From a virus: DNA of 43,712 nt. Every line of letters begins with the position of its first letter. Positions within the stretch are counted from its first letter, which is position 1. The notes under the pieces are model-generated. The model saw nothing but the letters and a program-made list of their open reading frames with translations. It had not been told where the DNA came from and did not search any database. Below are positions 4,784-39,172 of this stretch, piece by piece. The stretch lies in IMG/VR virus record IMGVR_UViG_3300025301_000024, positions 1 through 43,712 of that record; one strand, given 5' to 3'. The position numbers and the translations under genes were made by a program.

Positions 4784-5206
4784 ATGGGATTCAAATTGTC
4801 CATTGCGTTAGGAATTGCTTTGGTGATGCTGTCGGGAGGCTTCAAGCTCTACTACGACAAGTCAGAAGCTGAGAAGATGGCTATGGCAACGCAGTTGCAA
4901 ACAGCGATGGACAATCAGTTACGCCTTGAGAACGCGGTTCAAACCCAGAACGAGCAGATCGAAAAAGCGGTTGAAAACAAGAAGACATCAGATGCTCGTA
5001 TTGAATTATTGACGATGGCTAACAATCAGGCAACAGAAAAGATCGATGAATTACGCGAGAAATTCGCTCGTCACGATCTTGATATGTTGTCGTTGCGTAA
5101 GCCGGGATTGATTGAGAAAGTTGTCAATCGTGGTACGGCAGCCGTTTTCAAAGAGCTTGAAGATTTAACGAACCCGGATCAGTTTAATGCAGAAACGGAA
5201 GGTTAA
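4784..5206 (+). CDS. Rz-like inner-membrane spanin (i-spanin)
   Basis: A protein of 140 residues. An N-terminal membrane anchor (residues about 4-23) is followed by a long Gln/Glu/Lys-rich coiled coil (about 30-100), the usual design of Rz proteins. The next gene encodes a proline-rich lipoprotein and the one after that a lysozyme, completing the Gram-negative lysis order i-spanin, o-spanin, endolysin. In the family, i- and o-spanins link inner and outer membranes across the periplasm and fuse them in the last step of lysis. Assigned by architecture and context, not by a specific sequence motif. Confidence 0.75.
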   Translation: MGFKLSIALGIALVMLSGGFKLYYDKSEAEKMAMATQLQTAMDNQLRLENAVQTQNEQIEKAVENKKTSDARIELLTMANNQATEKIDELREKFARHDLDMLSLRKPGLIEKVVNRGTAAVFKELEDLTNPDQFNAETEG

Positions 5207-5208
5207 AC

Positions 5209-5598
5209 ATGAAAGTCTTGGCTTTGGTTCTGCTGGTCATTTGCAGCGGTTGTACCACGGCATTTCGTCCGCCGGAGGTGCGGCCCGTCGAGGTGGTGAC
5301 CATCGAGAAACCGGCTCCTATGTACCACCCGCCATTGCCGCCAAGAATAAAGAGTATGCCGGTCGAATGGAAGATTTTGACGCCGGATACGATGGAAGAG
5401 TATTTGAACGACCTGAAGGCTGGCGAAGCCCCAGTAAATGCTTGGTATTCGCTGACCACCAAAGGTTACGAAAATATCAGCAACAACATGGCACAGATTC
5501 AAAGGTATATAAAACAGGTTTTATCGATAGTTGAGTATTACCGTGATGTTGACGCAGAACGGCAAAAACAGGATGCAGAGCCACCGATAGAGGAATGA
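5209..5598 (+). CDS. Rz1-like outer-membrane lipoprotein spanin (o-spanin)
   Basis: A 129-residue protein starting two bases after the Rz-like stop. The N-terminus MKVLALVLLVICSGC is a lipoprotein signal with Cys15 as the expected lipid anchor; the -3 residue is Cys rather than Leu, which is less usual. A proline-rich stretch follows (RPPEVRPVEV, APMYHPPLPPR), typical of o-spanins, then a soluble helical C-terminus. It is longer than lambda Rz1 but within the range of separate o-spanins. The last bases overlap the endolysin start. Confidence 0.75.
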   Translation: MKVLALVLLVICSGCTTAFRPPEVRPVEVVTIEKPAPMYHPPLPPRIKSMPVEWKILTPDTMEEYLNDLKAGEAPVNAWYSLTTKGYENISNNMAQIQRYIKQVLSIVEYYRDVDAERQKQDAEPPIEE

Positions 5599-6035
5599 GC
5601 AGGTTAACGGAAATGTTGCGTCGGCATGAAGGTGTGGAAAGTCATGCTTATTTGTGCAGCCAGAACTTCACGACCATCGGTGTGGGCCGAAATATCGATG
5701 CCGGTGATAACGGTCGTGCAAGAGGATTAGGGCTTTCTGATGATGAGGTTGACTATCTGTTGCAAAATGACATTGATCGTGTGACAGAGGAACTGGACGG
5801 TGAATACCCGTGGTTTGCGGGTCTGAATAACGCCCGATCTGATGCGATGATAGACATCAGTTTTAACTTAGGTCAGACGAGATTGAGAGGTTTCAGGAAG
5901 GCATTGGAAGCAATGGAATCTGGCGATTGGGAAGAGGCGGGTAAACAATTTTTGGACAGCCGGTGGGCCGATCAGGTCGGTAACAGGGCCACGGAATTAG
6001 CAGAGATAATTCGCACGGGCGAATATCGGGATTAG
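5595..6035 (+). CDS. Endolysin, GH24 (T4-type) lysozyme
   Basis: A protein of 146 residues, the usual size for a single-domain phage lysozyme that cuts the MurNAc-GlcNAc bond of peptidoglycan. The catalytic triad is visible as Glu12 (RRHEGVE), Cys21 (AYLCSQ) and Thr27 (NFTTIGVG), spaced E-8-C-5-T. In T4 lysozyme the middle residue is Asp20; the Cys variant is well known among phage endolysins and T4 D20C is active. Later parts (SDAMIDISFNLGQTRLRGF, LDSRWADQVGNRATELAEIIRTG) match the C-terminal lobe. There is no signal peptide, so release should depend on a holin. Confidence 0.93.
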   Translation: MSRLTEMLRRHEGVESHAYLCSQNFTTIGVGRNIDAGDNGRARGLGLSDDEVDYLLQNDIDRVTEELDGEYPWFAGLNNARSDAMIDISFNLGQTRLRGFRKALEAMESGDWEEAGKQFLDSRWADQVGNRATELAEIIRTGEYRD

Positions 6036-11806: not shown

Positions 11807-12321
11807 ATGAAGTGGCGCAAAAATTGGAGATTGAACCACGGGATATTCCTCGGGAACCTCGGGTCAAGCCGAAAAATGCCCCTCGTGAAATAACCCACAC
11901 CATCACGTTAGTTCCGTCTAATTATATATATCCGTTGTGGTTTGATGTGCGGGATCATCTGGGTCGGGCTGTTGAAAGATCGAATGGACGTTGGAGTTTG
12001 GAATCCCTTTACGCGGCTATTGCAAACGAGCATCAACATTTATGGCTGGCTTTCGACAAGGACAATCAGATTGATGGGGCAGGAACAACGGAGTTTGTGG
12101 ATTATCCTTGCAAGCGGATGTTGGCGGTGCAATTTTTGGGTGGCTCAAAGTTTAACGACTGGTGTTGGGACATGATGGATCGCTTTAATAGCTGGGCAAC
12201 TGATAACGGTTGCCAAGGTATTGAAGTGACCGGCAGGGCTGGTTTTGGCAAATGGTTGAAGCAGGATGGTTATCATCGTGTTTACACGGTTTATGAAAAG
12301 AGGTTGAATAATCATGGGTAA
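11803..12321 (+). CDS. GNAT-like phage protein (T7 gp13-like candidate)
   Basis: A 172-residue protein. After a Pro/Arg-rich N-terminus, residues about 30-165 follow the order of a GNAT acyltransferase fold: a helix pair (LWFDVRDHLGRAVE), a strand (HLWLAFDK), the central strand region (MLAVQFLGG) and a late helix with GFGKWLKQDGYHRVYTVYEK, which resembles the end of GNAT folds. In T7-like phages a GNAT-like core protein (gp13) is encoded just before the other internal virion genes, matching the position here. The pyrophosphate-binding motif is not clear, so activity is doubtful. Confidence 0.55.
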   Translation: MNEVAQKLEIEPRDIPREPRVKPKNAPREITHTITLVPSNYIYPLWFDVRDHLGRAVERSNGRWSLESLYAAIANEHQHLWLAFDKDNQIDGAGTTEFVDYPCKRMLAVQFLGGSKFNDWCWDMMDRFNSWATDNGCQGIEVTGRAGFGKWLKQDGYHRVYTVYEKRLNNHG

Positions 12322-16134: not shown

Positions 16135-16136
16135 TC

Positions 16137-19100
16137 ATGGGAACGGTTCGTGTAGAAGGTCTTGGCGAGGTTGAGATTGCAGGTGATACGCCTACCGTAG
16201 AGGAAGCAAGAAATATTTATGCATCTTTGCAGGAAAAAAAGTTAGAGCGTCCTCCAGATAAGGCACCTACACCTCCAGATAAACCTCCGGCCCCTCTTGC
16301 TAACGGTGAAGACCCTTCTGTTATAAAAGATATTCTTACTCAGGCCGTTGGTGGCGTTCGTGATGCCACTCAAAGTATTCTTAATTTAACAGCCAGACCT
16401 GCTGCTTATCTTGAGGGTAAGCTTCCAACCACTGACAAACCGTTCAAACCGTTGACCCTACCTACTATTGCTCCGGCAAAAACCACAGGAGGAGGGGTAG
16501 CCAGAGGGCTTTCCCAATTTTTTGTGCCGTATTTAGGGGCGTTGAAAGTTTTGGGGGTTGGAAAAACATTTATTGGCACCTTGGCTAAGGCTGAAGGTGC
16601 GGCTGTTCTTACTGATCAGGCGGTCTTTGATCCGTTCGATCAAAAACTTTCTGATTTGGTTCAGTCAGTCCCTGCTTTACAGAATCCTGCTACGGAATAT
16701 TTACAAGCTGATGAAGATGATTCTGAGGCTGAAGCCAGATTCAAATTGGCTGTTGAAGGTATGGGATTGGGGGCTTTTGCTACAACTATCATTCAGTCTT
16801 TTAGGGGACTCAGATCACTCAAGAAAGGAAAGACAGAGCAAGGGATCAAGGAAGTTGACAAGGCTATCGAAGCTAGTCCAAAAATAGACCCGGTGGCATC
16901 GCCAAGAGAGGTTCTTGGGGATGACTATGCCGGGAATATACGAGTAGATAAATACAATACCACTGAAGATGTAAAACAGGGGATTCGTGATACTGCGGAA
17001 AAGAACGTGGGTAGGATAGACGAAGCAACACGCGGAACAATCACGACCGATCAATTAAAGGGACTAGCGCGAGAAGTAGGTTTAACTGTTGATGATCTTT
17101 TAGATCGTGTTACAGGAGAGGCATGGAATGCAGAAGAGATATTAAGTGCTCGTATGATGATGTTAGCTTCTGCTATTAGGTTGCGTAATGCAGGAAAAGT
17201 AGCTTCAAAAACCGGGTTAGATGCTGATATCTTAAAAGTAAAAGATGCTCTTAATCTCCATGTTGGAATCCAAGAACAGGTATCTGGATTAGCTGCTGAA
17301 GCAGGTCGTGCGCTTAGACAATTTCGTCTAATAATTGGTGAAGGCAATGTAGAGGAATTATTGACTGCTGGAGGCGGGAAGAAAGCCATAAAAGAAATAG
17401 CTGATCGTCTTGCTGTACTTGATCCAGAACTCGATATGGCGGTTTTTAATAATACGGCTAGGGTGCTTAATAAGCCAACCCTCATGGATAAATGGCTTGA
17501 GTTTTGGATCAACGGGTTACTTTCAGGACCGCAAACTCACGCGGTAAATTTTTTATCAAATGAATTAACATCGTTTTGGTCTATCCCAGAACATTATCTG
17601 GCTGCCGGAATTGGTGCCATAAGAAAAACTCCAGAGAGGGTTACATTAGGAGAGGCTAATCATCGGCTTTATGGATGGCTCAAAGGACATCAGGAGGGCT
17701 GGGGTTTAGCCAAGAAAGCATTTATCACCGAAAGCCCGTCCGATATTTTTTCTAAATTGGAGCTTCCCAGAGAACGAGCAATAAAAGGCACACTTGGAAA
17801 GGTCATAAGATTACCCGGCAGGGCGTTGATAAGTTCTGATGAGTATTTTAAGTCGATTGGTTATCGGATGGAGCTTAACGCGCAAGCCTACAGGAGTGCT
17901 ATTAAAGCTGGATTAAATCCGCGTTCAAGAGAATTTGCGGAATTTTTGGAAAAGATTAAAAATAATATCCCTGAAAATAAAAATCAAATAAAACAGGTGG
18001 CAAAAGAATTAGGGATGGGAGTTAGAGAATACAAAGCTCTGAAGAAAAAGATTTCCCTTAAAGCCACAGATAATGCCAGATACCTTACGTTCACTAAACC
18101 CCTTGAAGGCATTAGTGCTGACATTACATCTATACAGGCAAAAGCGCCAATTTCTAGGATGCTCATGCCATTTGTCAGAACTCCAACCAACATAGTCAGA
18201 TTTGCCGCTGAAAGAACTCCTCTTGGATTGATGATGCGGGAAACGAAAAACGCCAAAGGAGCAGCAAAGGATGTGCAAATGGCTAAGATGGGGCTTGCGG
18301 CAGGGGCTGGTGCTCTCATCATGTCAATGGCAGGTCAAGGTAAAATAACCGGCTCCGGCCCAACCGATCCTAAAGCGCGCAGAGATATGTTGGATACCGG
18401 CTGGCAACCTTATTCGTATGTTTATGAAGATGATGAAGGGAAGAAGCATTATTATTCCTACAAACGTATTGAACCGATGGGAATTTTGTTTGGCTTAACT
18501 GCGGATTTTCACGATATTGCTGGAGAAGTTCCAGATAAGGATGCAGATGAAATAGCGGCAGGTATTGTTGCTTCGATAAGCCAGAACCTTACCGATAAGA
18601 CTTTCTTTAAGGGGCTTGGTGATTTTTTCGAGGCTATGGGTAATCCAGACAGGCAGTTCACTGCCTACTTGCAGAATCTTAGCGGAACGATAGTACCTTC
18701 TATTTTAGCTCAAACCACCAGAACCGTTGATCCTGTGTTAAGAGATACCAGATCATTTTTGAAAAGGATTAAATCGCGTATCCCCGGATGGTCCGAGACT
18801 CTTGAGGCAAGGCGCAATCTATGGGGAGAACGAATCATTCTGAGCGGGGGATTGGGTCCAGATATTATATCTCCTATTTATTCATCAGAATCAAAGAACG
18901 ATCCGGTCGCCAATGAACTGGTCAGATTGGATTACCATCCTTCATTGCCGCAACGAACTCAAAGTGGTACAGAAATACCCGACAATTTGTATTGGCAATT
19001 TGTTGAAGACGCTGGCAAACCAGCGCATCAATTACTTGAAAGTATAATGGCACTGCCTGCATGGGAAGCGTTAAACAACAGACCTAGCGAACAAAAAGAT

Positions 19101-19289
19101 ATAATTAGAAAGGTTATTGATTTAACACGAAAGAACGCCCGACTTAAACTAAGAGTCGCAATGGGAGAATACTTGACTAAACAAGATAAGATTAAAATAA
19201 CAGAACAGTTAAAAATAGAAGGGCATTCTGAAGATAGCGCAGAGCAGTGGATTCGTGAAAATGTCAATAAAAAAACGGCAAGCCGGTAA
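16137..19289 (+). CDS. Large internal virion protein (ejection protein candidate)
   Basis: 1050 residues, the largest of the virion block apart from the fibre. The N-terminus MGTVRVEGLGEVEIAGDTPT is a short domain common at the start of large internal proteins of marine phages; a Pro/Lys linker and a hydrophobic segment (about 110-150) follow. The middle is helical and Lys/Arg-rich. Residues about 680-790 include a Gly/Ala-rich hydrophobic stretch (MGLAAGAGALIMSMAG) and the conserved YKRIEPMGILFGLTADFHDIAGE. No lytic transglycosylase motif was found. By size, position and hydrophobic segments it resembles proteins ejected with the DNA, but this is inference. Confidence 0.65.
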   Translation: MGTVRVEGLGEVEIAGDTPTVEEARNIYASLQEKKLERPPDKAPTPPDKPPAPLANGEDPSVIKDILTQAVGGVRDATQSILNLTARPAAYLEGKLPTTDKPFKPLTLPTIAPAKTTGGGVARGLSQFFVPYLGALKVLGVGKTFIGTLAKAEGAAVLTDQAVFDPFDQKLSDLVQSVPALQNPATEYLQADEDDSEAEARFKLAVEGMGLGAFATTIIQSFRGLRSLKKGKTEQGIKEVDKAIEASPKIDPVASPREVLGDDYAGNIRVDKYNTTEDVKQGIRDTAEKNVGRIDEATRGTITTDQLKGLAREVGLTVDDLLDRVTGEAWNAEEILSARMMMLASAIRLRNAGKVASKTGLDADILKVKDALNLHVGIQEQVSGLAAEAGRALRQFRLIIGEGNVEELLTAGGGKKAIKEIADRLAVLDPELDMAVFNNTARVLNKPTLMDKWLEFWINGLLSGPQTHAVNFLSNELTSFWSIPEHYLAAGIGAIRKTPERVTLGEANHRLYGWLKGHQEGWGLAKKAFITESPSDIFSKLELPRERAIKGTLGKVIRLPGRALISSDEYFKSIGYRMELNAQAYRSAIKAGLNPRSREFAEFLEKIKNNIPENKNQIKQVAKELGMGVREYKALKKKISLKATDNARYLTFTKPLEGISADITSIQAKAPISRMLMPFVRTPTNIVRFAAERTPLGLMMRETKNAKGAAKDVQMAKMGLAAGAGALIMSMAGQGKITGSGPTDPKARRDMLDTGWQPYSYVYEDDEGKKHYYSYKRIEPMGILFGLTADFHDIAGEVPDKDADEIAAGIVASISQNLTDKTFFKGLGDFFEAMGNPDRQFTAYLQNLSGTIVPSILAQTTRTVDPVLRDTRSFLKRIKSRIPGWSETLEARRNLWGERIILSGGLGPDIISPIYSSESKNDPVANELVRLDYHPSLPQRTQSGTEIPDNLYWQFVEDAGKPAHQLLESIMALPAWEALNNRPSEQKDIIRKVIDLTRKNARLKLRVAMGEYLTKQDKIKITEQLKIEGHSEDSAEQWIRENVNKKTASR

Positions 19290-19309
19290 AATAATCACAG
19301 GAAAATAAA

Positions 19310-19939
19310 ATGACTACAGGACAAACAGTACCGCCGGGTTATTACGTCAGCAACAGCGCAGACGAGGACGTGTTCTGCGTCACGAAGACCAATAACTTTT
19401 ATTTCAAGAAAGCCCGTGGCAAGAAATGGGCACGTACTGATTCATGGAACTTCGATCATCTGTGTGATGTGGAAACCGTTAACGAAGTGCAGGGTGTCAG
19501 CGGTGATGTGAACACGCACGATGGCCGTGGTCTGGAAGTCAGCGTGTCGGCGCACATCGGTGTCACGGTATCCGACGTGATGAAGTGGCATTATGTCAAC
19601 CCGGATGGCAACCAAGCCACGCTGTGGGCTGGCCCTGAAGGCGGACCCGGTAAGGGTGTGAGCATGGATGTGGGTGTGTGGTACGACAAGAACGGTAACG
19701 TTCATATGAAGCTCTCGGCTTCCGGGGTGATCCCTCATTTTGATTTTGGCGGGGAAGTTGTGATCAACCCAAAGACTGTTGAAAACTTAGAGAAACCCAC
19801 AGCAGATGACAAGGCGTTTGCCAAGGGGTTTACCGAGGGTGCCACTCTGGGTATTGCAGACAAGCCACCGAAGGTTCTGACCGAAGGTGTTGCCGTGGTG
19901 GATAAAGTGGGTAAGAAAGTTCTTGGCTGGTTCAAGTAG
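19310..19939 (+). CDS. Unknown protein, first gene after the virion block
   Basis: 209 residues, preceded by AGGAAAATAAAATG. Beta-rich and soluble. It opens with TVPPGYYVSNSADEDVF; the centre has alternating strands (GLEVSVSAHIGVTVSDVMKW, GVSMDVGVWYDKNGNVHMKL) and the C-terminal third is helical and Lys-rich. GC content appears higher than in the preceding gene, which may mark a boundary. I do not recognise the family. Co-directional and close to the membrane genes that follow. Confidence 0.55.
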   Translation: MTTGQTVPPGYYVSNSADEDVFCVTKTNNFYFKKARGKKWARTDSWNFDHLCDVETVNEVQGVSGDVNTHDGRGLEVSVSAHIGVTVSDVMKWHYVNPDGNQATLWAGPEGGPGKGVSMDVGVWYDKNGNVHMKLSASGVIPHFDFGGEVVINPKTVENLEKPTADDKAFAKGFTEGATLGIADKPPKVLTEGVAVVDKVGKKVLGWFK

Positions 19940-19945
19940 GGCGTT

Positions 19946-20209
19946 ATGTCGATAGTCACAGAATCTCCTGCCAATTTTTACGAAGGCTTGTTTATGAACG
20001 AGGGCCATTTCGTTGAATTCACGCTGGGGCTTGACAACCTCGTCTGGGTGAATGAGACCATCGAATCCATCCGCAAGCCAAAGCCTAAAATTATCACCAA
20101 AATTTACGGCATTAAGGATGCGATAGAATTTCAAAGCAGTCTCATCGATTTTGGCTACCATCACTTACCCGCCTTTGAGTTATCCGAGCAGTCCGACTAC
20201 ATCAATTAA
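19946..20209 (+). CDS. Small hypothetical protein
   Basis: 87 residues, soluble and mixed alpha/beta, with no Cys pairs and no membrane segment. Motifs such as NFYEGLFMNEGHFVEF and IYGIKDAIEFQSSLIDFGY are not known to me. It lies seven bases after the previous stop, in the same transcription unit. No function assigned. Confidence 0.5.
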   Translation: MSIVTESPANFYEGLFMNEGHFVEFTLGLDNLVWVNETIESIRKPKPKIITKIYGIKDAIEFQSSLIDFGYHHLPAFELSEQSDYIN

Positions 20210-20223
20210 CGGGGCAGACGATT

Positions 20224-20598
20224 ATGGGCGATCAATTCAGCGGCGATCTTTCACGCAATGAAGTGGAGATGGATCTCAGTAAGTTCCTTGAGATTATGAA
20301 GGACAACTCTGATCTCAAGGATAAGATCCGTGAATTGCAGGGCGCAGAAAAAGTCAACCCGTACCAGAAATGGATACATCTTGCCAAGACCATAGATGCT
20401 TGGCGCATCTTTCCTCGCGTGTTTGTCGGGGTATATATCTATTTGCTGTACGCGGTGGTGATCTGGTTTATGACCCTTAACGAACCAAACTTGGAACAAG
20501 CTGGTCTGGTGTCGGTCGTTGTTGGGGCAATGGCGGCAGTGTTTGGAATATACGCAGGCACGTCAGGACAGAGCAAAAAGTTTAAAGGTGAAGGTTAG
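20224..20598 (+). CDS. Two-pass membrane protein, holin-like
   Basis: 124 residues with a polar, acidic N-terminal half (residues 1-60) and then two hydrophobic helices (about 64-83, VFVGVYIYLLYAVVIWFM; and about 92-112, GLVSVVVGAMAAVFGIYAG) ending in a short Lys-rich tail. That is the topology of phage holins that have an extended N-terminus. It is separated from the lysozyme cassette by 14 kb, so it is either a second lysis function or a membrane partner of the csgF/csgG genes just downstream. The stop overlaps the next GTG start. Confidence 0.5.
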   Translation: MGDQFSGDLSRNEVEMDLSKFLEIMKDNSDLKDKIRELQGAEKVNPYQKWIHLAKTIDAWRIFPRVFVGVYIYLLYAVVIWFMTLNEPNLEQAGLVSVVVGAMAAVFGIYAGTSGQSKKFKGEG

Positions 20599-20879
20599 TG
20601 AACGAAGCCTTTAATCTGATTGCTGATGTTGGGTTCCCGATTGCGATTGCATTGATTGCAGGCTTCTTTATTTTCCTGACCATCAAGTACATTCTTGAAA
20701 GCGTCATCGGGCAGGTCAGCGGTATTCATGTGATCGTCACTGGCTTGGATAACCGTGTGAAAACGATGAACCATGACATCATTCGTTTAGATGCAACCAT
20801 GTGTGCGGTTCTGGGGATTAGACCTGATCTGGGCAGGATAGCTCGGGCTGACGGTAAGGACGATGCTCGGCGTGACTGA
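20598..20879 (+). CDS. Single-pass membrane coiled-coil protein, paralogue 1
   Basis: 93 residues from a GTG start. A membrane helix at about 12-33 (FPIAIALIAGFFIFLTIKYIL) is followed by a heptad-like segment with DNRVKTMNHDIIRLDATMCAVLGIR. The next gene encodes a protein of the same design with DRIRMLDNDIIRLQQKLDTVIELR, so the two are paralogues. Small anchor plus coiled coil is shared by many phage membrane proteins of unknown role. Overlapping starts and stops put it in one unit with csgF. Confidence 0.55.
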   Translation: MNEAFNLIADVGFPIAIALIAGFFIFLTIKYILESVIGQVSGIHVIVTGLDNRVKTMNHDIIRLDATMCAVLGIRPDLGRIARADGKDDARRD

Positions 20880-21139
20880 TGGATATCGCAAATGTTGTCA
20901 GCGAGTACGGTTTTCCTATCGTGGCGACGGTGGGTCTGTTGTACATGATTTATTTTATCTGGCAATTCATCACCCATCAGATCAAGAAGAAACTGTCAGA
21001 GGCGAATGTTACTTTGGTGGCACTCATTGACCGGATTCGGATGTTGGACAACGACATCATAAGGCTGCAACAGAAACTCGATACCGTCATTGAATTGCGG
21101 GAAGCAAAGGCGGAACAGAATGAAATGGATAAGGATTAG
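20879..21139 (+). CDS. Single-pass membrane coiled-coil protein, paralogue 2
   Basis: 86 residues. A membrane helix at about 11-32 (GFPIVATVGLLYMIYFIWQF) is followed by a basic stretch (HQIKKK) and a coiled coil with LDNDIIRLQQKL. Homologous to the gene just upstream. The last 20 bases overlap the start of csgF, implying translational coupling with the secretion genes. Possible roles are a holin/antiholin pair or inner-membrane partners of the curli secretion proteins; the sequence does not decide. Confidence 0.55.
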   Translation: MDIANVVSEYGFPIVATVGLLYMIYFIWQFITHQIKKKLSEANVTLVALIDRIRMLDNDIIRLQQKLDTVIELREAKAEQNEMDKD

Positions 21140-21611
21140 TTTGCTGCTGGTGCTTTCTCCGGCTTTATCTTATTCGTCTGAGTTGGTTCACAAGTTCGGT
21201 AGCCCTAGTTTCAACGGGATCAATCAATCGGCCCATTACCTGACCATTGATGAGCAGGAAAGAACCCGCTCAGAGAAAGTTGCTGCGGATATCCAAGATG
21301 CCTTGGACGAGGCTGAACGTGAGGCGGATAACACCACGCTTGCCAAGTTCCTGCGTAATCTTGAGTCGAGGATTTATTCAACACTCGCCAAGGACATTTC
21401 AGAATCGCTGTTCAATTACGACAACATCCCCACAAGCGAGAACCCCATCGTCGGGAGAATCAATCTCGAAGGCAATATCCTTACGTGGCTTAACGATGGA
21501 ACCAGCATTACGCTCACCATCGAGGAATGGTTCGACGGGCTTCTGATCTCAACCACTGAGATCGTGATTCCTGTAGGTTCTTTCGGAGGGTGTCTGACAG
21601 ACTGTGAATGA
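21120..21611 (+). CDS. csgF: CsgF-like curli assembly protein
   Basis: 163 residues from the ATG at 21120 (inside the previous gene), chosen because a signal peptide follows directly (MKWIRISLLLVLSPALSYSS). The mature start ELVHKFGSPSFNGINQSAHYL matches the CsgF N-terminus, in which an F-x-N/S-P-x-F-G/N-G segment inserts into the CsgG pore. Later the pattern NPIVGRINLEGNILTWLNDG corresponds to the C-terminal beta part of CsgF. In E. coli, CsgF caps the CsgG channel outside the cell and helps nucleate curlin. This copy is slightly longer than E. coli CsgF and ends with a Cys pair (GGCLTDCE) not in the classical protein. ATGATG at its stop begins csgG. Confidence 0.85.
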   Translation: MKWIRISLLLVLSPALSYSSELVHKFGSPSFNGINQSAHYLTIDEQERTRSEKVAADIQDALDEAEREADNTTLAKFLRNLESRIYSTLAKDISESLFNYDNIPTSENPIVGRINLEGNILTWLNDGTSITLTIEEWFDGLLISTTEIVIPVGSFGGCLTDCE

Positions 21612-23122
21612 TGAAGCACTTATTCTTGTTAGCCGTGTTGCTTGCCGTGGGTTGTGCGCCTATTGGCATGGGCAAAAGAAATGAAGATTGCAGTTCTCTT
21701 ACGGCGTGTATTGAGGGTCCGCAGATCGTACCCAGTGCAGCCCAGCAGTTACTAAACCTGCCGCCTCCTAAGAACAAGGCGGTGGTGGCGGTATACAGTT
21801 TCACCGACAAGACGGGACAACGAAAGTCCAACGACAACCTAGCCAGCTTCAGCACCGCAGTTACCCAAGGCGGTGTGGATATCCTGATTGAGGCGTTGAA
21901 GGACGCAGGCCGGGGTAATTGGTTTGCGGTGGTGGAAAGAGCAGGGCTGGACAGCCTGACCCGAGAACGACAGCTTATCAAGAACACCCGGCAGACCTAC
22001 GCCGGGGAGGGGGAGAATGTCCTCAAGCCGTTGCTCTATGCCGGGTTGATCCTTGAAGGTGGCATTTCGTTTTACGACACGAACCTGCGAACCGGTGGTA
22101 ACGGGGCTAGGTTCTTAGGTATCGGGGCGATGAACCAGTACCGCGAAGACAAGGTGACGGTAATTCTGCGAGCAATACTGGTACAAACCGGGGAAGTGTT
22201 GCTGAACGTGACGGCCACGAAAACCATCCTGTCCACCGGCAGGGGCACCGACCTGTTCAGGTTCTACGAACAGGGTACTGAACTGGTTGAGATCGAGAGC
22301 GGCAGCACCGAGAACGAACCGGTGGGTCATGCCGTCAGAGCAGCTATCGAGGCGGCGGTGTACGGGCTGGTGATTCAAGGTCTGAAGGTCTGGAAAGGCA
22401 GGTCTGGGACTTCGATTATGCTAAACTGGTGCGGGAGGATAACGATGAAAGTTCTTCTTAAATTGTTGATGCTATTGGTTCCGGCGGTTGTGCTTGGAGC
22501 CAACAACGATATATACATAACCCAGACAGGAACGGGCCTTACATTGACCATCGACCAGATCGGGGCGAGCAACAAGGTTGGAACCTCGCAGGCCAGAGTT
22601 ATTTTGGGTGGCACCAGCATGACCGTTGATCTGGATCAGATCGGTGACACCAACGTCATCGCTGCAAGCATCTTACAAGGCAACTCATCCAGTTGGACAT
22701 ACAAAGCAACGGGTGATAGCAACGTGGCTACCCTCGCAGTCGGGGCAACCGGGGATTCTGCCAGTTCGGATTTCGACTTCGAGGCCACAGGCGACAGCAA
22801 CGTGCTCACGTTCACCCAAGGTGACGCAGCAACAGCCACGGCAGGTAATCAGGATTTCGCTGTGACAGGCACGTCAAACGATCTGAACGTCAAATGCAAC
22901 GTCATCGGCTGTATCAACAACTGGACTGTCTCAGGGAACAGCAACGATATCGATACGTTGCAATCAGGGCGACAGGATCACGACATCACCATATCCCTTA
23001 CCGGTTCTTCAAATAATGTTGACGTGGATCAAACCGACACGGCCAGCACCAATGTGGCTAACATCATTTCAACAACGAGCAACGGCGTCATCAACGTGGA
23101 TCAATGCGCCAGTGGCTGTTAA
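21608..23122 (+). CDS. csgG: CsgG-like curli secretion channel, frame as written runs on into curlin
   Basis: Residues 1-16 are a lipoprotein signal ending LAVGC (Cys16). Residues about 60-260 carry the CsgG core: VAVYSFTDKTGQRK, NWFAVVERAGLDSLTRERQLI, LILEGGISFYDTNL, QYREDKVTVILRAILVQTGEVL and AVRAAIEAAVYGLV. CsgG forms the nine-subunit outer-membrane pore that exports curlins. After residue about 259 the frame does not stop but continues into the curlin gene. The proper CsgG tail is present in another frame: GLERQVWDFDYAKLVRED, with a TAA at 22459-22461. An 8-bp near-duplication at 22379-22394 explains the shift. So this is either a CsgG-curlin fusion or a frameshifted csgG that should end at 22461. 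Confidence 0.85.
   Translation: MMKHLFLLAVLLAVGCAPIGMGKRNEDCSSLTACIEGPQIVPSAAQQLLNLPPPKNKAVVAVYSFTDKTGQRKSNDNLASFSTAVTQGGVDILIEALKDAGRGNWFAVVERAGLDSLTRERQLIKNTRQTYAGEGENVLKPLLYAGLILEGGISFYDTNLRTGGNGARFLGIGAMNQYREDKVTVILRAILVQTGEVLLNVTATKTILSTGRGTDLFRFYEQGTELVEIESGSTENEPVGHAVRAAIEAAVYGLVIQGLKVWKGRSGTSIMLNWCGRITMKVLLKLLMLLVPAVVLGANNDIYITQTGTGLTLTIDQIGASNKVGTSQARVILGGTSMTVDLDQIGDTNVIAASILQGNSSSWTYKATGDSNVATLAVGATGDSASSDFDFEATGDSNVLTFTQGDAATATAGNQDFAVTGTSNDLNVKCNVIGCINNWTVSGNSNDIDTLQSGRQDHDITISLTGSSNNVDVDQTDTASTNVANIISTTSNGVINVDQCASGC
22379..22394 (+). repeat. 8-bp tandem near-duplication breaking the csgG frame
   Basis: GGTCTGAA (22379-22386) is followed by GGTCTGGA (22387-22394). Removing the first unit joins the CsgG frame to the conserved-looking tail and the TAA at 22459. 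Confidence 0.85.
22445..23122 (+). CDS. Curlin-repeat secreted protein 1 (CsgA/CsgB-like)
   Basis: 225 residues from the internal ATG at 22445. This start is favoured by GGGAGG at 22433-22438 and by the signal peptide MKVLLKLLMLLVPAVVLG that follows. The mature part holds curlin-type repeats with strand-turn pattern: LTIDQIGASNKV, VDLDQIGDTNVI, then degenerate ATGDSNVATL, EATGDSNVLTF, VTGTSNDLNV, VSGNSNDID and LTGSSNNVDVDQ. Curlins are exported through CsgG and polymerise into surface amyloid. The Gln/Asn ladder is less regular than in E. coli CsgA. A Cys pair ends the protein (DQCASGC). As written, the frame is continuous with csgG upstream; the repaired csgG would overlap it by 17 bases. 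Confidence 0.8.
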   Translation: MKVLLKLLMLLVPAVVLGANNDIYITQTGTGLTLTIDQIGASNKVGTSQARVILGGTSMTVDLDQIGDTNVIAASILQGNSSSWTYKATGDSNVATLAVGATGDSASSDFDFEATGDSNVLTFTQGDAATATAGNQDFAVTGTSNDLNVKCNVIGCINNWTVSGNSNDIDTLQSGRQDHDITISLTGSSNNVDVDQTDTASTNVANIISTTSNGVINVDQCASGC

Positions 23123-24189
23123 GTTTACTGTTCGTTGGTGCAGCCCATGCGGCAGGCATTGGGGAGATATCTGAGTTAAAGGGTGTCGGTGAGATCACCC
23201 GTAAGGATTCCGACGCTGCATTCCTAGCTGAACTCGCTTCCGATATTTTCTCTTTCGATGATGTCACGACCGGCAACGGTCGCATGGCAATCCAGTTTCT
23301 CGATTCTTCTACGCTGAAGTTAACAGAGCACTCTAAGGTGGTCATTGATGAATACATCTATGACCCCGATCCCAGCAAGACCAAGCTGGCCCTGAACATG
23401 GCGTCAGGTACGGCCCGGTTTATCACGGGTGCTTTGGCGAGGATCAACAAGAACAACATTTCCATTCGCACCCCCAGTGCCACCATCGCTATCAGGGGCA
23501 CGGACTTCACCACCACGGTTGACGAGCTTGGCCGCTCGCTGATCATCCTGCTGCCTGATCCTGATGGCACCTCCTCGGGGGAGATTTCAGTGACCACATG
23601 GTCGGGGACGGAAATTCTCAACCAGCCCTTCCAGGCCACGATGGTGTCAACCTTTGAGTCACGGCCTACCAAGGCCGTCACCCTTGGCAACATCACGCTT
23701 GATCTGATCGACAACATGCTGATCATCAACAAGCCGCCTGCCATTGTGCAAGCAGAGGCAGAGCAGAGCGGTGAGGTAAAGACCGATCTCGACAGGGATT
23801 TCTTTGAGGATGCTCCCGATCTGGATAAGGATTTTCTTGAGATTGAAGAGGAAATCAGCAGGCTGGATATTGACCTGTTAAGTTTTGATTTTCTGGTGGA
23901 TTTATTAGCAATCGTTGAGACTGGCAGTAAGAAGAAAACCACGTCTGGTGGTGAGCTACAGGGCGTGGAACTGACCGGGATCATCCCCGGTTTTGATCCG
24001 ACCTACCAGACTTATACCTTTGTCGAAGGGATGTATGTGTATTTTGTTCACCAAGGAACCAACACGTTTGATATAGCCTTGGACAAGGAAGCAGCAGCTT
24101 ACCTGAGCATAAATTCTTTTGGCGTTCCGATGGAGATAGAGGTCAATGGCGCGGGCGATAATACTATCGTTATTTTTCAGTCTCCTTAG
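23104..24189 (+). CDS. Secreted FecR-domain protein
   Basis: 361 residues; ATG lies inside the previous gene (19-base overlap) and starts a signal peptide (MRQWLLSLLFVGAAHAAG). Residues about 20-150 form a FecR domain: GVGEITRKD, ELASDIFSFDDVTTGNGRMAIQFLDSSTLKL, and IRTPSATIAIRGTDF, the strongest family signature. An acidic linker follows (DLDRDFFEDAPDLDKDF) and a C-terminal beta domain (EGMYVYFVHQG). FecR folds are beta-helical periplasmic or secreted modules; free-standing ones are often encoded next to CHASE2-cyclase genes in proteobacteria. Here it sits between two curlin genes, so it may be a fibre component, an export substrate or a signal input. Confidence 0.85.
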   Translation: MRQWLLSLLFVGAAHAAGIGEISELKGVGEITRKDSDAAFLAELASDIFSFDDVTTGNGRMAIQFLDSSTLKLTEHSKVVIDEYIYDPDPSKTKLALNMASGTARFITGALARINKNNISIRTPSATIAIRGTDFTTTVDELGRSLIILLPDPDGTSSGEISVTTWSGTEILNQPFQATMVSTFESRPTKAVTLGNITLDLIDNMLIINKPPAIVQAEAEQSGEVKTDLDRDFFEDAPDLDKDFLEIEEEISRLDIDLLSFDFLVDLLAIVETGSKKKTTSGGELQGVELTGIIPGFDPTYQTYTFVEGMYVYFVHQGTNTFDIALDKEAAAYLSINSFGVPMEIEVNGAGDNTIVIFQSP

Positions 24190-24943
24190 TCTGGCACATG
24201 CAGGTGATAACCTGATCACCATTCAGACCAAGGGCAGTGGTACAACCATAACGACCAAGCAGATTGGCAGCAGCAATATCACGGGCGTCTATTGTGGGCT
24301 GGGCAGCTTCGACAATTCACTGGTCAATACTCATAATTGTGATGACGCGACCATCACATCAGTAGTTGATGGTGTATCGAACGTCGTGTACTCGCAATCG
24401 GTATGGTCAAATCATTCCGATCAAAGCTGGATCACAACCGTTACCGGGACTGACAATTACGCGGTGATCGATATGGATGAATCAGGTAGCACGTCAAGGA
24501 TCACCCAGATTGGCAATGATAATCAGGCATGGATTCTGGGTTCAGGTGTTGACAACGTATACAAAACCGAACAAACCGGCGACGACATGTACGCCAAAAT
24601 TATCTCGTTCGCTGATGACAGCGACATCTGGATCACGCAGGAAGGCAGCGGTGATCACAATGCCTACGTCTATAACTCCGGGAGTGCTCATCGCAACGAC
24701 ACCCGATTGATCCAGAAAGGGTCGGGTAACAAAGATGCCGATGTGTTCTGGTACGGCGCAGACGATGGCGATTTAACGCTTACCCAGCAAGGCAATGGAT
24801 CACATACCTCGCTCATCAAATTTTATACGGACGACTACGATGTCACTGTCGTCCAAAAAGGGACCACCAACAAGGCTTACTCAGCTACGTTTAATTGTGT
24901 AAGTAATTGCGACAAAACCATCAGCATCACGCAACAGAATTGA
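24146..24943 (+). CDS. Curlin-repeat secreted protein 2
   Basis: 265 residues; the start overlaps the FecR gene by 44 bases and is fixed by the signal peptide MARAIILSLFFSLLSLAHAG. The mature protein has repeats of about 22-25 residues with I/L-T-Q-x-G-x-x-N/D: ITTKQIGSSNITG, SRITQIGNDNQAW, YKTEQTGDDMYA, IWITQEGSGDHNAY, RLIQKGSGNKDA, LTLTQQGNGSHTS, VTVVQKGTTNKAY, ending ISITQQN. This is clearer curlin pattern than in the first curlin and resembles CsgA/CsgB families of marine bacteria. Two Cys pairs lie in loops. Likely an amyloid fibre subunit exported by CsgG. Confidence 0.82.
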   Translation: MARAIILSLFFSLLSLAHAGDNLITIQTKGSGTTITTKQIGSSNITGVYCGLGSFDNSLVNTHNCDDATITSVVDGVSNVVYSQSVWSNHSDQSWITTVTGTDNYAVIDMDESGSTSRITQIGNDNQAWILGSGVDNVYKTEQTGDDMYAKIISFADDSDIWITQEGSGDHNAYVYNSGSAHRNDTRLIQKGSGNKDADVFWYGADDGDLTLTQQGNGSHTSLIKFYTDDYDVTVVQKGTTNKAYSATFNCVSNCDKTISITQQN

Positions 24944-26010
24944 AAATCCTGCTCCCAATTTTGCTGGCGTTGTTGTTGCTGCGGGTGTTCGATCCGTTCC
25001 CGGTGGAGACCCTTAGACTAAAATACTTCGATGCGCTGCTCACCATCAAAGAGCCCGTCCAGAGCAAAACGATTTCCCTGTACAACATCGATGAAGCGGC
25101 ACTGGCTGAAGGAGGGCAATGGCCGTGGCCTCGCCAGCAACTGGCGGCTCTCAATGATCAATTGCTTGATGCAGGTGCAGTGGCAGTGGTCTACTCTGTG
25201 TTGTTTCCTGAAACAGATCGATTCGGCGGGGACGCGGAATTTGCCGAGAGCATGGGCCAAGTTCCTACCTTCCTCTCGGCGGTAGCGACTGCCGACACTG
25301 ACAGGCAGGAAGGCTGGCACATCGGGGTCACCACGATGGGGCCGGTCGAAGAACACGTTCTGAGCTATCCCGGCATCCTGCCGAATGTTGATGTACTTCA
25401 GCAAGCGGCGGCTGGTACCGGGATCGTCAACACTGCCGCGGAGGTGGATGGGCTGGTGCGGAGGGTACCGATGCTGGTGAAGGTTGGGGAGAGCCTCTAC
25501 CCGGCCCTTGGGCTGGATGTGCTGCGTGGGCTGGCGGGTGACCCTTCTTATCAAGTAAAAGCCGCTCAGAGCGGCATACAGACCGTTAGAGTGCCTAATT
25601 ACAGCACCATCGAGACCGATAGCTCTGGTAGGGTGTGGGTCGATTGGAACACGACGTTTTCTCCAGAACCCCTAGCAGGCACCATCGTCTTCGTGGGGGC
25701 TACCGCAGCCGGGGTTTCCCCTGTTGTTTCAACCCCAAGACTTGGGATGCATCCGCATCAGGTTCAAGCAAACCTGTTTGAGACCCTGCTGAACGGCACG
25801 TCGCCGGTACGCCCGGACTGGGCGCTGGGTGCTGAAATATTGGTTGTCCTGATTTTTGGCCTTTTCACAGCGTGGTCAGTGCGTTATTTGCCTGTTTTGG
25901 TTGTACCAGTAGGGGTCATTGGGATCGGCGCTCTAGCGGCCTCTGCCAGCGTCTGGGGCTATCTAAGTTTAGGCATTCTGGTTGATGCTGCATTTCCGGT
26001 AACTTTCTAG
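24940..26010 (+). CDS. CHASE2 sensor part of an adenylate cyclase (interrupted)
   Basis: About 356 residues from TTG at 24940 (overlaps the curlin stop; TTG at 24907 is the alternative). It has an N-terminal membrane helix (LLPILLALLLLRVF), then a CHASE2 extracytoplasmic sensor domain of about 230 residues with YNIDEAALAEGGQWPWPRQQLAALNDQL and SVLFPETDRFGGDAEF, then three membrane helices (about 290-350). The usual Asp before LF in CHASE2 domains is Ser here. The frame ends at TAG 26008 in the last helix (LVDAAFPVTF), where a cyclase should follow. Deleting one A at 26001-26002 would join it to the downstream cyclase frame. Confidence 0.8.
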   Translation: MKILLPILLALLLLRVFDPFPVETLRLKYFDALLTIKEPVQSKTISLYNIDEAALAEGGQWPWPRQQLAALNDQLLDAGAVAVVYSVLFPETDRFGGDAEFAESMGQVPTFLSAVATADTDRQEGWHIGVTTMGPVEEHVLSYPGILPNVDVLQQAAAGTGIVNTAAEVDGLVRRVPMLVKVGESLYPALGLDVLRGLAGDPSYQVKAAQSGIQTVRVPNYSTIETDSSGRVWVDWNTTFSPEPLAGTIVFVGATAAGVSPVVSTPRLGMHPHQVQANLFETLLNGTSPVRPDWALGAEILVVLIFGLFTAWSVRYLPVLVVPVGVIGIGALAASASVWGYLSLGILVDAAFPVTF

Positions 26011-26044
26011 CCTCACAATCGGTGGAACGGGTGTAGCTCAGAGA

Positions 26045-26725
26045 ATGATCAGTGAATATCGCCAGAAATTGCAGATCAAGGGGATGTTTGGAACGTATGT
26101 CAGCCCCAAGCTGGTTCAGCAATTGGTGGACGATCCATCCTTGATGAAGCTCGGCGGCGATACCAAGACCATGAGTTTTCTGTTTTGTGATATCGTTGGC
26201 TTCACCCCTATCTCGGAGCATTTCAAAAACAACAACGATCCGCAGGGACTTGTCACCCTCATCAACCGTTTGCTGTCTGCCTTAACCGATGTGGTGCTGT
26301 CCCTCGATGGCACCATAGACAAGTACATGGGCGATTGTGTGATGGCGTTCTGGAACTCACCTGTGGATTGTCCCGACCATGAGGAAAGGGCTGTGACTTG
26401 TGCTGCCATGATGCTGGTCGCGCTTGAACATCTCAATGAGGAACTTGAACTTGAGGGATTACCAAAATTAGGCATTGGTGTCGGGCTTAACACTGGGCCA
26501 GCAGTCGTGGGAAATATGGGGGGCAAGCAGCGTTTCGATTACTCAGCTATCGGGGATAGCGTGAACGTGGCTGCTCGCTTGGAAAGCAGTTCAAGAAAGT
26601 ATTCCGAAGATGTTTTGATTGGCGAGGCGACAGCCAAAGCTGTGCCTGAGTTGGTGAAATATTTGGATTCAATTCAAGTTAAAGGTAAAGAGGAACGGTT
26701 AGAGGTTTATACATTGCGTAACTAA
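26045..26725 (+). CDS. Class III adenylate cyclase catalytic domain
   Basis: 226 residues from the first ATG; the open frame extends upstream to 26003 without a start. After a linker helix (YRQKLQIKGMFGTYVSPKLVQQL) comes a complete cyclase domain. Metal-binding Asp49 is in FLFCDIVGFT and Asp97 in KYMGDCVMAFWN; substrate-determining Lys93 and Asp171 (IGDSVNVAARLE) suggest ATP rather than GTP; Asn174 and Arg178 are the transition-state pair. All catalytic residues are present, so the product should make cAMP if translated as a dimer. There is no good ribosome site for the 26045 start, which fits an original fusion to the CHASE2 part. Confidence 0.85.
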   Translation: MISEYRQKLQIKGMFGTYVSPKLVQQLVDDPSLMKLGGDTKTMSFLFCDIVGFTPISEHFKNNNDPQGLVTLINRLLSALTDVVLSLDGTIDKYMGDCVMAFWNSPVDCPDHEERAVTCAAMMLVALEHLNEELELEGLPKLGIGVGLNTGPAVVGNMGGKQRFDYSAIGDSVNVAARLESSSRKYSEDVLIGEATAKAVPELVKYLDSIQVKGKEERLEVYTLRN

Positions 26726-29161: not shown

Positions 29162-29533
29162 TCAGAATGGGAAATCGGTATCGGCTGCTTCTGTTGTGGC
29201 TTCAGGGGCCGTGACCGTGGTTGTTTGTGCAACGTCGCCTTCCTCAAATAAATGGTTGTGTTCGTTGCCGTAGTACACCGAACTTGCAATCCTGAAATAC
29301 TTGCTGCCGTCTTCCTTGGCCGTGTTCAACCACGCGCTCAAGTTGATGCGCGGTCCTTCGTCCGGGTTCTGGCCGTCCTGCGGGAAAGCGTTGTTACGCA
29401 ACAGCACGATAAGCGTTTTCAGCATGTCTTCCGTTACGACGATATGGCCCCTGTAAGGGGGTTGCCGATTGCTGGTGGTGGCATCCTTGTTGCGCCAGAT
29501 GCCGCCCTGATTACTGCTAGGGAATTTATCCAT
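29162..29533 (-). CDS. SSB-like protein with acidic tail ending DTDFPF
   Basis: 123 residues. The middle is a beta-rich region (RGHIVVTEDMLKTLIVLLRNN, RINLSAWLNTAKEDGSKYFRIASSVYYG) that could be an OB-like fold. A Thr/Ala/Glu-rich tail ends in ADTDFPF. A disordered acidic tail with a terminal Pro-Phe tip is the signature by which SSB proteins recruit partners. Position between the annealing protein and other early genes supports a single-strand DNA role. The fold itself is not proven by any motif. Confidence 0.5.
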   Translation of the reverse strand: MDKFPSSNQGGIWRNKDATTSNRQPPYRGHIVVTEDMLKTLIVLLRNNAFPQDGQNPDEGPRINLSAWLNTAKEDGSKYFRIASSVYYGNEHNHLFEEGDVAQTTTVTAPEATTEAADTDFPF

Positions 29534-30410
29534 CGGTGGTTTCTCCTGTGGTTTGATAGGTGTGTTGCAGTTGTCTTAACTCTTCGACAGACATTTGTCT
29601 CAGAGGCTCGATGCGCTCATTGAACGCTTTGATTTCGTTCTGGTAACCGCGGTTATACAGTTCAAGCAACGTCTTGCGGTTACGTTTGGTGAATTCCTCG
29701 ATCCACGTCTTGCGGTTGCGTTTGGTGAATTCCTCGATCCACCCGGCAGCCGTCTTGGGGTCTCCAGCTTTGGCTGGAGTGCCTTCCGGCGGCAGGGCAA
29801 ACATCACGATGGTGACGTAGATGAACTCCAGCACCTCCTTGATGGTGTCCAGTGTCACGTCAACGTCAACGTCAATTTTCTTTTCTATCGTCATCATTCT
29901 GTCCTCAAGCGTCCATTTTTGGCCGCTAATAATTACCGCCGCTGCTGGTTTGACTTTGCTTACAGGCGGGGTGGTTTTTTTAGGTGCAGGAGCTTTCGCT
30001 TTTTCGTTGATCGCATGATGCACTTCATCAAAGGAAGCGTAGTTGCCGCCGCCGAGGCCACAGGCAGACAAACTGCGCCCAATCGAACTTGTAAGTGTGT
30101 TTTCGACACACGAAGTCGAATTAACTGGCCCACTACCTCGGAACTCCTCGGCAAAATCATTGGCAATAACGCGCCATGCACCATTTACAAATACACTAAT
30201 AGTTGTTTCAGCCAATACCTTTGTTTCATCGACCACATGAATCGTAGAAATAATTCTGCCATCTTCTCCATAGGCTTCCCGAAACGCCTGTACTCGCGTA
30301 TGCACTTCGGCGTATAGCTTGCCCCTGATGTTGACCTTGTTTTTGTCTGGCAGGTCAGCCATGTTTTTGACCGCGCCGAGCAGTCGATCTTGGTTGTAGT
30401 CCTCACTCAC
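29526..30410 (-). CDS. Putative single-strand annealing protein
   Basis: 294 residues from a GTG start. Residues about 28-130 (RGKLYAEVHTRVQAFREAYG, FAEEFRGSGPVNSTSCVENTLTSSIGRSL, ACGLGGGNYASFDEV) follow the arrangement of phage ssDNA-binding or annealing proteins, in which a T-S-x-I-G-R-x-L-x-x-x-G-L stretch is typical. The C-terminal half is Pro/Lys linker and charged helices. A 36-bp tandem duplication adds a second WIEEFTKRNRKT. It is co-transcribed with an exonuclease and an SSB-like gene, a normal recombination set. Function rests on pattern and context. Confidence 0.6.
   Translation of the reverse strand: MSEDYNQDRLLGAVKNMADLPDKNKVNIRGKLYAEVHTRVQAFREAYGEDGRIISTIHVVDETKVLAETTISVFVNGAWRVIANDFAEEFRGSGPVNSTSCVENTLTSSIGRSLSACGLGGGNYASFDEVHHAINEKAKAPAPKKTTPPVSKVKPAAAVIISGQKWTLEDRMMTIEKKIDVDVDVTLDTIKEVLEFIYVTIVMFALPPEGTPAKAGDPKTAAGWIEEFTKRNRKTWIEEFTKRNRKTLLELYNRGYQNEIKAFNERIEPLRQMSVEELRQLQHTYQTTGETTDG
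29670..29741 (-). repeat. 36-bp in-frame tandem duplication
   Basis: 29670-29705 and 29706-29741 differ at one base. They encode two copies of a 12-residue unit (WIEEFTKRNRKT) in the putative annealing protein. Confidence 0.95.
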
Positions 30411-39115: not shown

Positions 39116-39133
39116 AATTTTGTCCTCTGGTTT

Positions 39134-39172
39134 CACCCAAAAACCCCAGACTGGCCGGGGTTAATAGGGGTG
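39134..39172 (-). terminator. Repeated terminator-like hairpin, copy 1
   Basis: AACCCC-AGACTGGCC-GGGGTT stem inside an outer CACCC/GGGTG pair. On the - strand it is followed by GTTTTTGGGTG. The same design recurs four more times to the right. Confidence 0.55.

Follow-up and report, generated by a model that had tools for sequence, protein, structure and literature searches.

The locus examined here raises the question of why a virus should carry what looks like a curli secretion unit, complete with its own fibre substrates and a signalling module. It lies in the IMG/VR record IMGVR_UViG_3300025301_000024, whose 43,712 bases constitute the whole stretch of DNA that was analysed (hereafter the window), and it comprises nine overlapping open reading frames (ORFs) on the + strand at 20598-26725, encoding the small membrane proteins TmA and TmB, CsgF, CsgG, curlin 1, a FecR-domain protein, curlin 2 and a CHASE2-cyclase, the last of which is split. 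The cassette has virion genes on its upstream side; downstream come replication genes and a gene for a cytosine methylase. The cassette is real, is carried by a marine phage and is of a kind already published, represented here by a new lineage and with a firmer anatomy. On the basis of its gene content and order, linkage, purifying selection, domain families, the FecR fold and a C-terminal tail motif, we consider it probable that it forms a phage-specific type VIII (curli) secretion unit that coats infected cells and possesses its own membrane sensor.

A sequence-only reading of the window had placed csgF, csgG, two curlins, FecR and a CHASE2/adenylate cyclase on one strand of a phage genome, with overlapping starts and stops, between 21120 and 26725. 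All of these genes were recovered on the + strand, although the proposed start falls too late, since small membrane genes are present already from 20224 or 20598; that reading had also overlooked the upstream membrane pair, the curlin-like end of FecR, the lysis neighbourhood of the relatives and two ORF boundaries specific to this record. Its assignment of CsgG and CsgF was borne out by Pfam, PDB-chain profile and fold evidence. CsgF (21120..21611) has a signal peptide and, in alignment, an F.F..P.F.G start; it reaches 29.7 bits with PF10614 against a cut-off of 25.8 (E 7.9e-7), and its profile (A8) matches PDB CsgF chains at 8e-4, a PDB search with the single sequence having found no CsgF chain. 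CsgG, the predicted outer-membrane lipoprotein pore (21608..22461, the end being taken from the copy in a near-identical contig, as the frame in the window runs on to 23122), matches PF03783 at 2.2e-53 and, as a profile, PDB CsgG chains at 4.7e-69, with its lipobox Cys16 invariant in 9/9 aligned sequences. The FecR-domain protein (23104..24189), which begins with a signal peptide and has a distinct C-terminal beta domain, matches PF04773 at 1.2e-11, and the CHASE2 plus class III adenylate/guanylate cyclase (24907..26725, split into 24907-26010 and 26045-26725) matches PF05226 at 1.6e-36 and PF00211 at 2.7e-19.

Both curlins are predicted secreted repeat proteins. Curlin 2 (24146..24943) scores 21.3 bits with Curlin_rpt against a Pfam cut-off of 20.7 (E 2.5e-4), and NCBIfam returns CsgA at 1.1e-12 (below the equivalog cut-off) and CsgB at 6.8e-9. 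Thus, as far as family matches go, CsgF, CsgG, FecR, CHASE2, the class III cyclase and curlin 2 are all backed by curated families. Curlin 1 (22445..23122), whose signal peptide was recognised by eye, is weaker by sequence: taken alone, it matches Curlin_rpt at 0.0052, below the curated cut-off, and NCBIfam CsgA at 3.7e-4, below the equivalog cut-off. Among its aligned relatives, 20/42 match Curlin_rpt (best 5.9e-7), G-x-x-N is spaced every 22-27 residues in the alignment, and the sequence profile matches the curlin-repeat structure 8c50 at 9.7e-4. A regular beta-repeat fold is predicted by its AlphaFold2 model (pLDDT, the predicted local distance difference test, 86.2; pTM, the predicted template modelling score, 0.82), in which strands are paired throughout; VIA-align 2 compares this model with beta-helix proteins, the top one being SufD (Z 17.7, root-mean-square deviation (rmsd) 2.7, 192 aligned), and lists no curlin. 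The ratio of nonsynonymous to synonymous substitution rates (dN/dS), taken only for pairs in which synonymous change was unsaturated, was 0.03-0.08 for csgF, 0.03-0.06 for csgG, 0.05-0.13 for curlin 1, 0.02-0.04 for FecR, 0.03-0.07 for curlin 2 and 0.15-0.26 for the cyclase, with one pair each for TmA (0.08) and TmB (0.38). The curlins are therefore as constrained as the pore.

Such a locus could be an artefact, in which bacterial curli genes were joined to a phage contig or persist as a decayed passenger, and small repeats do upset two reading frames in this record. A chimeric join, which the sequence-only reading had named as a refuting outcome, was looked for by comparing contigs, not reads. 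A 60,023-base contig (L002) equals window 11608-32420 at 99.9-100% and is continuous over both cassette borders, and a 38,305-base contig (L010) equals 11612-26633, crosses the left border only, ends within the cyclase and carries its own insertions, which disturb csgF and csgG. Continuity over both borders in the near-identical 60-kb contig, and over the left one in the other contig, makes a join between phage and bacterial DNA unlikely as far as contigs show. The window differs from both contigs at two sites in the cassette, with eight bases repeated in tandem at 22377 and one additional A at 26001. In the window, CsgG and curlin 1 form one ORF (21608-23122) and CHASE2 and cyclase form two; in L002, CsgG is an ORF of 281 residues, and CHASE2-cyclase is a single ORF of 605 residues within which both PF05226 and PF00211 fall. 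A CsgG-curlin fusion and a split cyclase were consequently rejected as biological features, being peculiar to this record. The artefact is further contradicted by the same gene order in the border-crossing contigs and in the cultured phages HTVC008M and Melnitz, by strong purifying selection, and by a branch with support of 100/99 that separates phage CsgGs from 73 bacterial ones; it is largely refuted, and we regard it as extremely improbable.

Relative to the window, the sequence of the 60-kb contig is permuted, and it brings in genes for a terminase, a capsid protein and a portal-sized product. The terminase shows 54-57% identity to those of 023Pt_psg01, HTVC027P and DSL-LC04, and the capsid protein is 68% identical to those of MinM2 and Pag-Yong1 and 61% to that of HTVC027P, these being the nearest among the records compared. 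These sequence comparisons place the window phage among the HTVC023P-like podoviruses, as a distant member. A search for sister phages with the 1050-residue virion gene returned only L002 and L010 again, plus two contigs that are distant, and the G+C content of the window, about 50%, ranks near the top of 180 redundant csgG loci, which span 0.32-0.52.

The cassette was found to be almost invariant among viral loci. Each scan took in at most the 80 best loci near its query, out of more than 570 relatives per Tm scan. The query with CsgG only yielded 65 viral loci, 38 of them distinct by a CsgG stretch, and 21 of the 38 possess both flanks, that is, at least 1.5 kb before and at least 4.5 kb after CsgG. 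In this unbiased set, TmA or TmB, CsgF, a curlin, FecR and the CHASE2-cyclase occur on the same strand in 21/21 loci; counted by one flank, TmA/TmB are present in 30/30 loci with the upstream flank, and FecR, cyclase and curlin in 28/28 with the downstream flank. Such near-perfect completeness suggests that the curlins, FecR, the cyclase and TmA/TmB function jointly, and it therefore runs counter to the published view of a bare pore in a cultured carrier. When all flanked viral csgG loci were taken together, including those found through the Tm proteins, the full set was present in 49/50; curlin 2 occurs in 18 of the 50 and the optional tm0 in 15. The single miss is Brevundimonas phage Kabachok (L073 4905-5795), whose CsgG-like gene is divergent and stands alone, with none of the other cassette genes.

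Linkage was also counted from the side of the membrane proteins. Of 103 distinct loci obtained with the Tm-only query, 92 carry csg genes on the same strand, eight have cassette genes on the facing strand (the cyclase in all, FecR in five), two are too short and one is without the cassette. A phage group that includes L374, L384, L387, L388, L390 and others has TmA-TmB facing a cassette on the opposite strand. TmA and TmB both match the same six of 50,697 phage records (two of HTVC008M and four of Melnitz), which are those with a phage-type CsgG; CsgG is matched by two further records, namely a Salmonella fragment of 1,499 bases and the record of Kabachok. By comparison, tm0 matches 360 of the 50,697, mostly Vibrio phages and many without the cassette. 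With the L007 locus, the window shares about 80% identity in the other csg genes but about 35-40% in the cyclase, and its cyclase is 62-68% identical to those of L027, L029 and L034; the cyclase has therefore been swapped between phages.

Bacterial loci present a different picture. A scan of the best 80 bacterial csgG loci, from which five phage-like contigs of metagenome-assembled genomes (MAGs; L083, L084, L085, L097 and L107) were set aside, left 75, of which 63 have full flanks. CsgF was found in 67 and a curlin match in 70; TmA/TmB were found in none, FecR in one (L086) and a CHASE2-cyclase match in two (L086 and, on the other strand, L146). Hence, bacterial curli operons, such as the csg genes of Escherichia coli and the alphaproteobacterial csgF-csgG-curlin loci, share CsgF, CsgG and curlins with the phage unit, but they lack TmA/TmB (0/75) and nearly always FecR (1/75) and the CHASE2-cyclase (2/75). 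In a CsgG tree of 128 rows, a branch of length 0.48 with support of 100/99 separates 73 bacterial rows from 49 phage rows, which are mixed with the five phage-like MAG contigs and L086. The latter, a 705-kb Hyphomonas MAG contig, carries csgF-csgG-curlin-FecR-CHASE2/cyclase at 10782-15497 amid genes that by eye are chromosomal (TonB receptor-like and others). In the tree, a long branch (1.31) leads to its CsgG, which groups with the phage rows, and any transfer between L086 and phages may have gone either way. When the FecR alignment was searched against 385 Alphaproteobacteria, 75 matches were obtained at E 1e-20, the L086 genome standing alone at 1e-66 and the next at 1.5e-36; among 29 further FecR loci, viewed with about 1.5 kb on each side, the CHASE2-cyclase was present in one (L328, facing strand).

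The gene order itself has been described before. A pelagiphage module composed of a histidine kinase (HK), CsgF, CsgG, CsgA/B, FecR, CsgA/B and adenylate cyclase, occurring in HTVC023P-type podoviruses and in myoviruses, with a wide distribution in the ocean and transcripts in metatranscriptomes, was reported by Wittmers 2022 (PMC9599517; this and the other papers are cited from excerpts of their text), and the window phage shows the same CsgF-CsgG-curlin-FecR-(curlin)-cyclase order. The Pelagibacter phage HTVC008M and the Methylophilales phage Melnitz, both myoviruses (141-147 kb) with CsgG 44-48% identical to that of the window, likewise carry two small TmA/TmB genes, CsgF, CsgG, a curlin, FecR, a second curlin-like gene and the CHASE2-cyclase. 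The earlier supposition that the present set is more complete than known ones does not hold, given that curlins and cyclase are already part of the published module and of these two phages. The csgA and csgB genes are described as missing in the excerpted Melnitz paper (PMC9004378); contrary to this, the GenBank record of Melnitz (L072 6842-9636) names two curlin associated repeat proteins. The roles suggested for such genes, namely a block to superinfection, aggregation and a lysis pore, are also in print in the excerpts of PMC9599517, PMC9004378 and PMC7029224. The open literature searched contained no other account of phage curli with TmA/TmB membrane proteins, a FecR tail or a lysis context.

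A role as an iron regulator, assigned to the FecR-domain protein by virtue of its name alone, was rejected; its model matches FecR/PupR signalling domains. Residues 49-262 of the model superimpose on the PupR signalling domain 6ovk (Z 15.8, rmsd 2.5, 138 aligned), and a match to BDI_1681 was also obtained (Z 14.2). The phage protein shares the FecR domain with the FecR/PupR cell-surface signalling proteins and differs from them in that a signal peptide replaces the cytoplasmic anti-sigma part and in having an extra C-terminal beta domain with a curlin-like end. In the model, this domain is a set of short strands (282-359), which the fold search barely covered. The end follows the pattern hydrophobic-x-hydrophobic-x-Gln in 82/87 distinct FecR C-termini, as do 40/40 of curlin 2 and 49/97 of curlin 1. 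The same pattern occurs in CsgF in 2/97, in CsgG in 0/96, in the cyclase in 0/78, in TmA in 0/85, in TmB in 0/119 and in 53/1,051 ORFs of bacterial loci, a background gathered mechanically with curlin ORFs included; the FecR of L086 is without a curlin-like end. The window cyclase contains the motifs FCDIVGFT, DKYMGD and GDSVNVAARL. CHASE2 cyclases of Sinorhizobium feed a cyclic AMP regulator that has a FecR-domain gene among its targets (PMC5498481, excerpt), which by analogy hints that FecR and the cyclase go together. The FecR-domain protein is a candidate curlin-linked sensor rather than an iron regulator.

At the 5′ end, TmA (20598..20879; 93 residues, one N-terminal hydrophobic segment, phrog_18771 2.2e-28) is by its linkage the constant leader of the cassette, and TmB (20879..21139) is its 86-residue paralogue (phrog_18771 1.6e-27; phrog_4898 holin 6.6e-4). 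The optional tm0 (20224..20598), with two hydrophobic segments by hydropathy and a match at 4e-21 to phrog_10198, a family of unknown function, adjoins them. Across relatives, TmA/TmB are paralogues of 86-116 residues, one lineage (L061) having a single longer copy, and 14 of 15 proteins examined by hydropathy have one segment near the N-terminus, the remaining one having two. In the published module, the gene or genes before csgF are termed histidine kinase (PMC9599517, excerpt), whereas the window has in this position TmA/TmB, of 86-93 residues and without a kinase domain. TmA/TmB are probably the published kinase, equated by gene position (clearest in HTVC008M), and the label is taken as a misnomer. 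The 15 aligned TmA/TmB returned 18 weak families and no kinase family from Pfam at E 0.1, and NCBIfam gave no kinase family for the TmA and TmB of the window. A text search of PMC9599517 found mention of neither holin nor CHASE. A weak match to the holin family phrog_4898 was seen in 4/15 TmA/TmB (best 1.1e-4) and to a spanin family in 1/15, which makes these proteins candidate holin-like partners rather than a kinase.

These holin matches also favour a rival explanation, a variant of the gated pore suggested by Buchholz 2022, in which the CsgG/CsgF pore and TmA/TmB would breach the envelope and time or ease lysis, with the curlins secondary. Using profiles of the spanins and lysozyme of the window and of L214, spanin/lysozyme genes were located within 2.5 kb of the cassette in 30/92 distinct csg loci, in some before it and in others after it. 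Moreover, in L209, L214 and L219 (93-96% alike), tm0-TmA-TmB are followed directly by Rz, Rz1 and lysozyme without csg genes, and a search of the three fragments, which are 9.8 to 25 kb long, turned up no CsgG. However, the trio represents one lineage, known from fragments only, and a bare pore needs no curlins, which are strongly constrained and present in 28/28 flanked loci; FecR and the cyclase would play no part, and the window phage has its own lysis genes on the + strand, namely an Rz-like inner spanin (4784..5206; phrog_739 Rz-like spanin 4e-11), an Rz1-like outer spanin lipoprotein (5209..5598; phrog_812 Rz-like spanin 1.1e-13) and a lysozyme-type endolysin (5595..6035; PF00959 4.4e-13, phrog_7 endolysin 2.7e-17). 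A lysis aid of this kind is accordingly judged unlikely. The neighbours of tm0 in two annotated phages showed no lysis context.

For the curli unit proposed to coat the infected cell, we infer secretion, amyloid formation, a signalling loop, its timing and a benefit to the phage. Judging from the signal peptides, the host Sec system would export both CsgG and CsgF, the curlins (one or two) and the FecR-domain protein; CsgG would form the outer-membrane pore, capped by CsgF, and the curlins would exit there and polymerise into amyloid on the infected cell. Through its curlin-like C-terminus, the FecR-domain protein may bind curlins or the fibre base and signal secretion to the inner-membrane CHASE2 sensor, whose cyclic AMP would adjust the host, with TmA/TmB as dedicated inner-membrane partners, possibly holin-derived and not a histidine kinase. 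The location of the unit among lysis genes in some relatives suggests late expression and thus fibres that act around lysis, where they could tag the cell or make it adhesive. The likeliest gain appears to be aggregation, by which fresh hosts would be kept close to the burst. Phages that drive host amyloid secretion would alter the sticking and aggregation of infected ocean bacteria.

Alternatively, the curlin coat could be a surface shield that stops competing phages from adsorbing to the infected cell, as proposed in the excerpts of PMC9599517, and the completeness of the secretion machinery and its substrate would serve this purpose. Since a coat made as late as the placement by lysis genes in some relatives suggests would miss most superinfection, a shield seems quite unlikely. 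Import or a general permeability of the outer membrane through CsgG without fibres, after the uptake idea of Zaragoza-Solas 2020 (PMC7029224, excerpt), would agree with a cassette devoid of the CsgE gate gene; the conservation of curlins and CsgF speaks against it, and it is considered very unlikely. A bolder version of the coating unit is a distinct phage curli machine, in which a holin-descended inner-membrane pair ties the pore to lysis and a curlin-ended FecR reports fibre export via the CHASE2 cyclase. This proposal is tentative and rather doubtful. If true, the phage would couple amyloid display, cyclic AMP and lysis timing, a coupling not found in the excerpts of PMC9599517, PMC9004378 and PMC7029224.

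Several observations weigh against an amyloid-coating unit with its own sensor. No clumping of Melnitz-infected cells was reported by Buchholz 2022 (PMC9004378, excerpt), though that phage carries the unit. Foldseek gave no PDB match under E 0.001 for curlin 1, the E. coli CsgA fibril appearing at E 2.6, and curlin profiles (hidden Markov models) gave no significant match to the FecR tail, so its likeness to curlins rests on a short motif. The three strict cyclase motifs occur in 62, 70 and 58 of 82 distinct proteins, and the lysis genes of the window (4784-6035) lie about 14 kb from the cassette. Additionally, a Pfam and NCBIfam scan of the cassette proteins, which did not extend to the remaining genome, found no CsgE, CsgC or CsgD, genes also reported absent from the phage module in the excerpts of PMC9599517.

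Further differences between the window and the 60-kb contig were noted away from the cassette. A tandem repeat of about 36 bases at 29707 (within 29529-30410) is missing from L002, and the helicase frame at 37094-39136 shows a repeated peptide stretch near its start (about 39000), where the 60-kb contig differs too; the record may carry several assembly repeats. Finally, 379-3564 encodes a tail spike-like protein of 1061 residues with many similar repeats and a chaperone-like C-terminus (phrog_4636).

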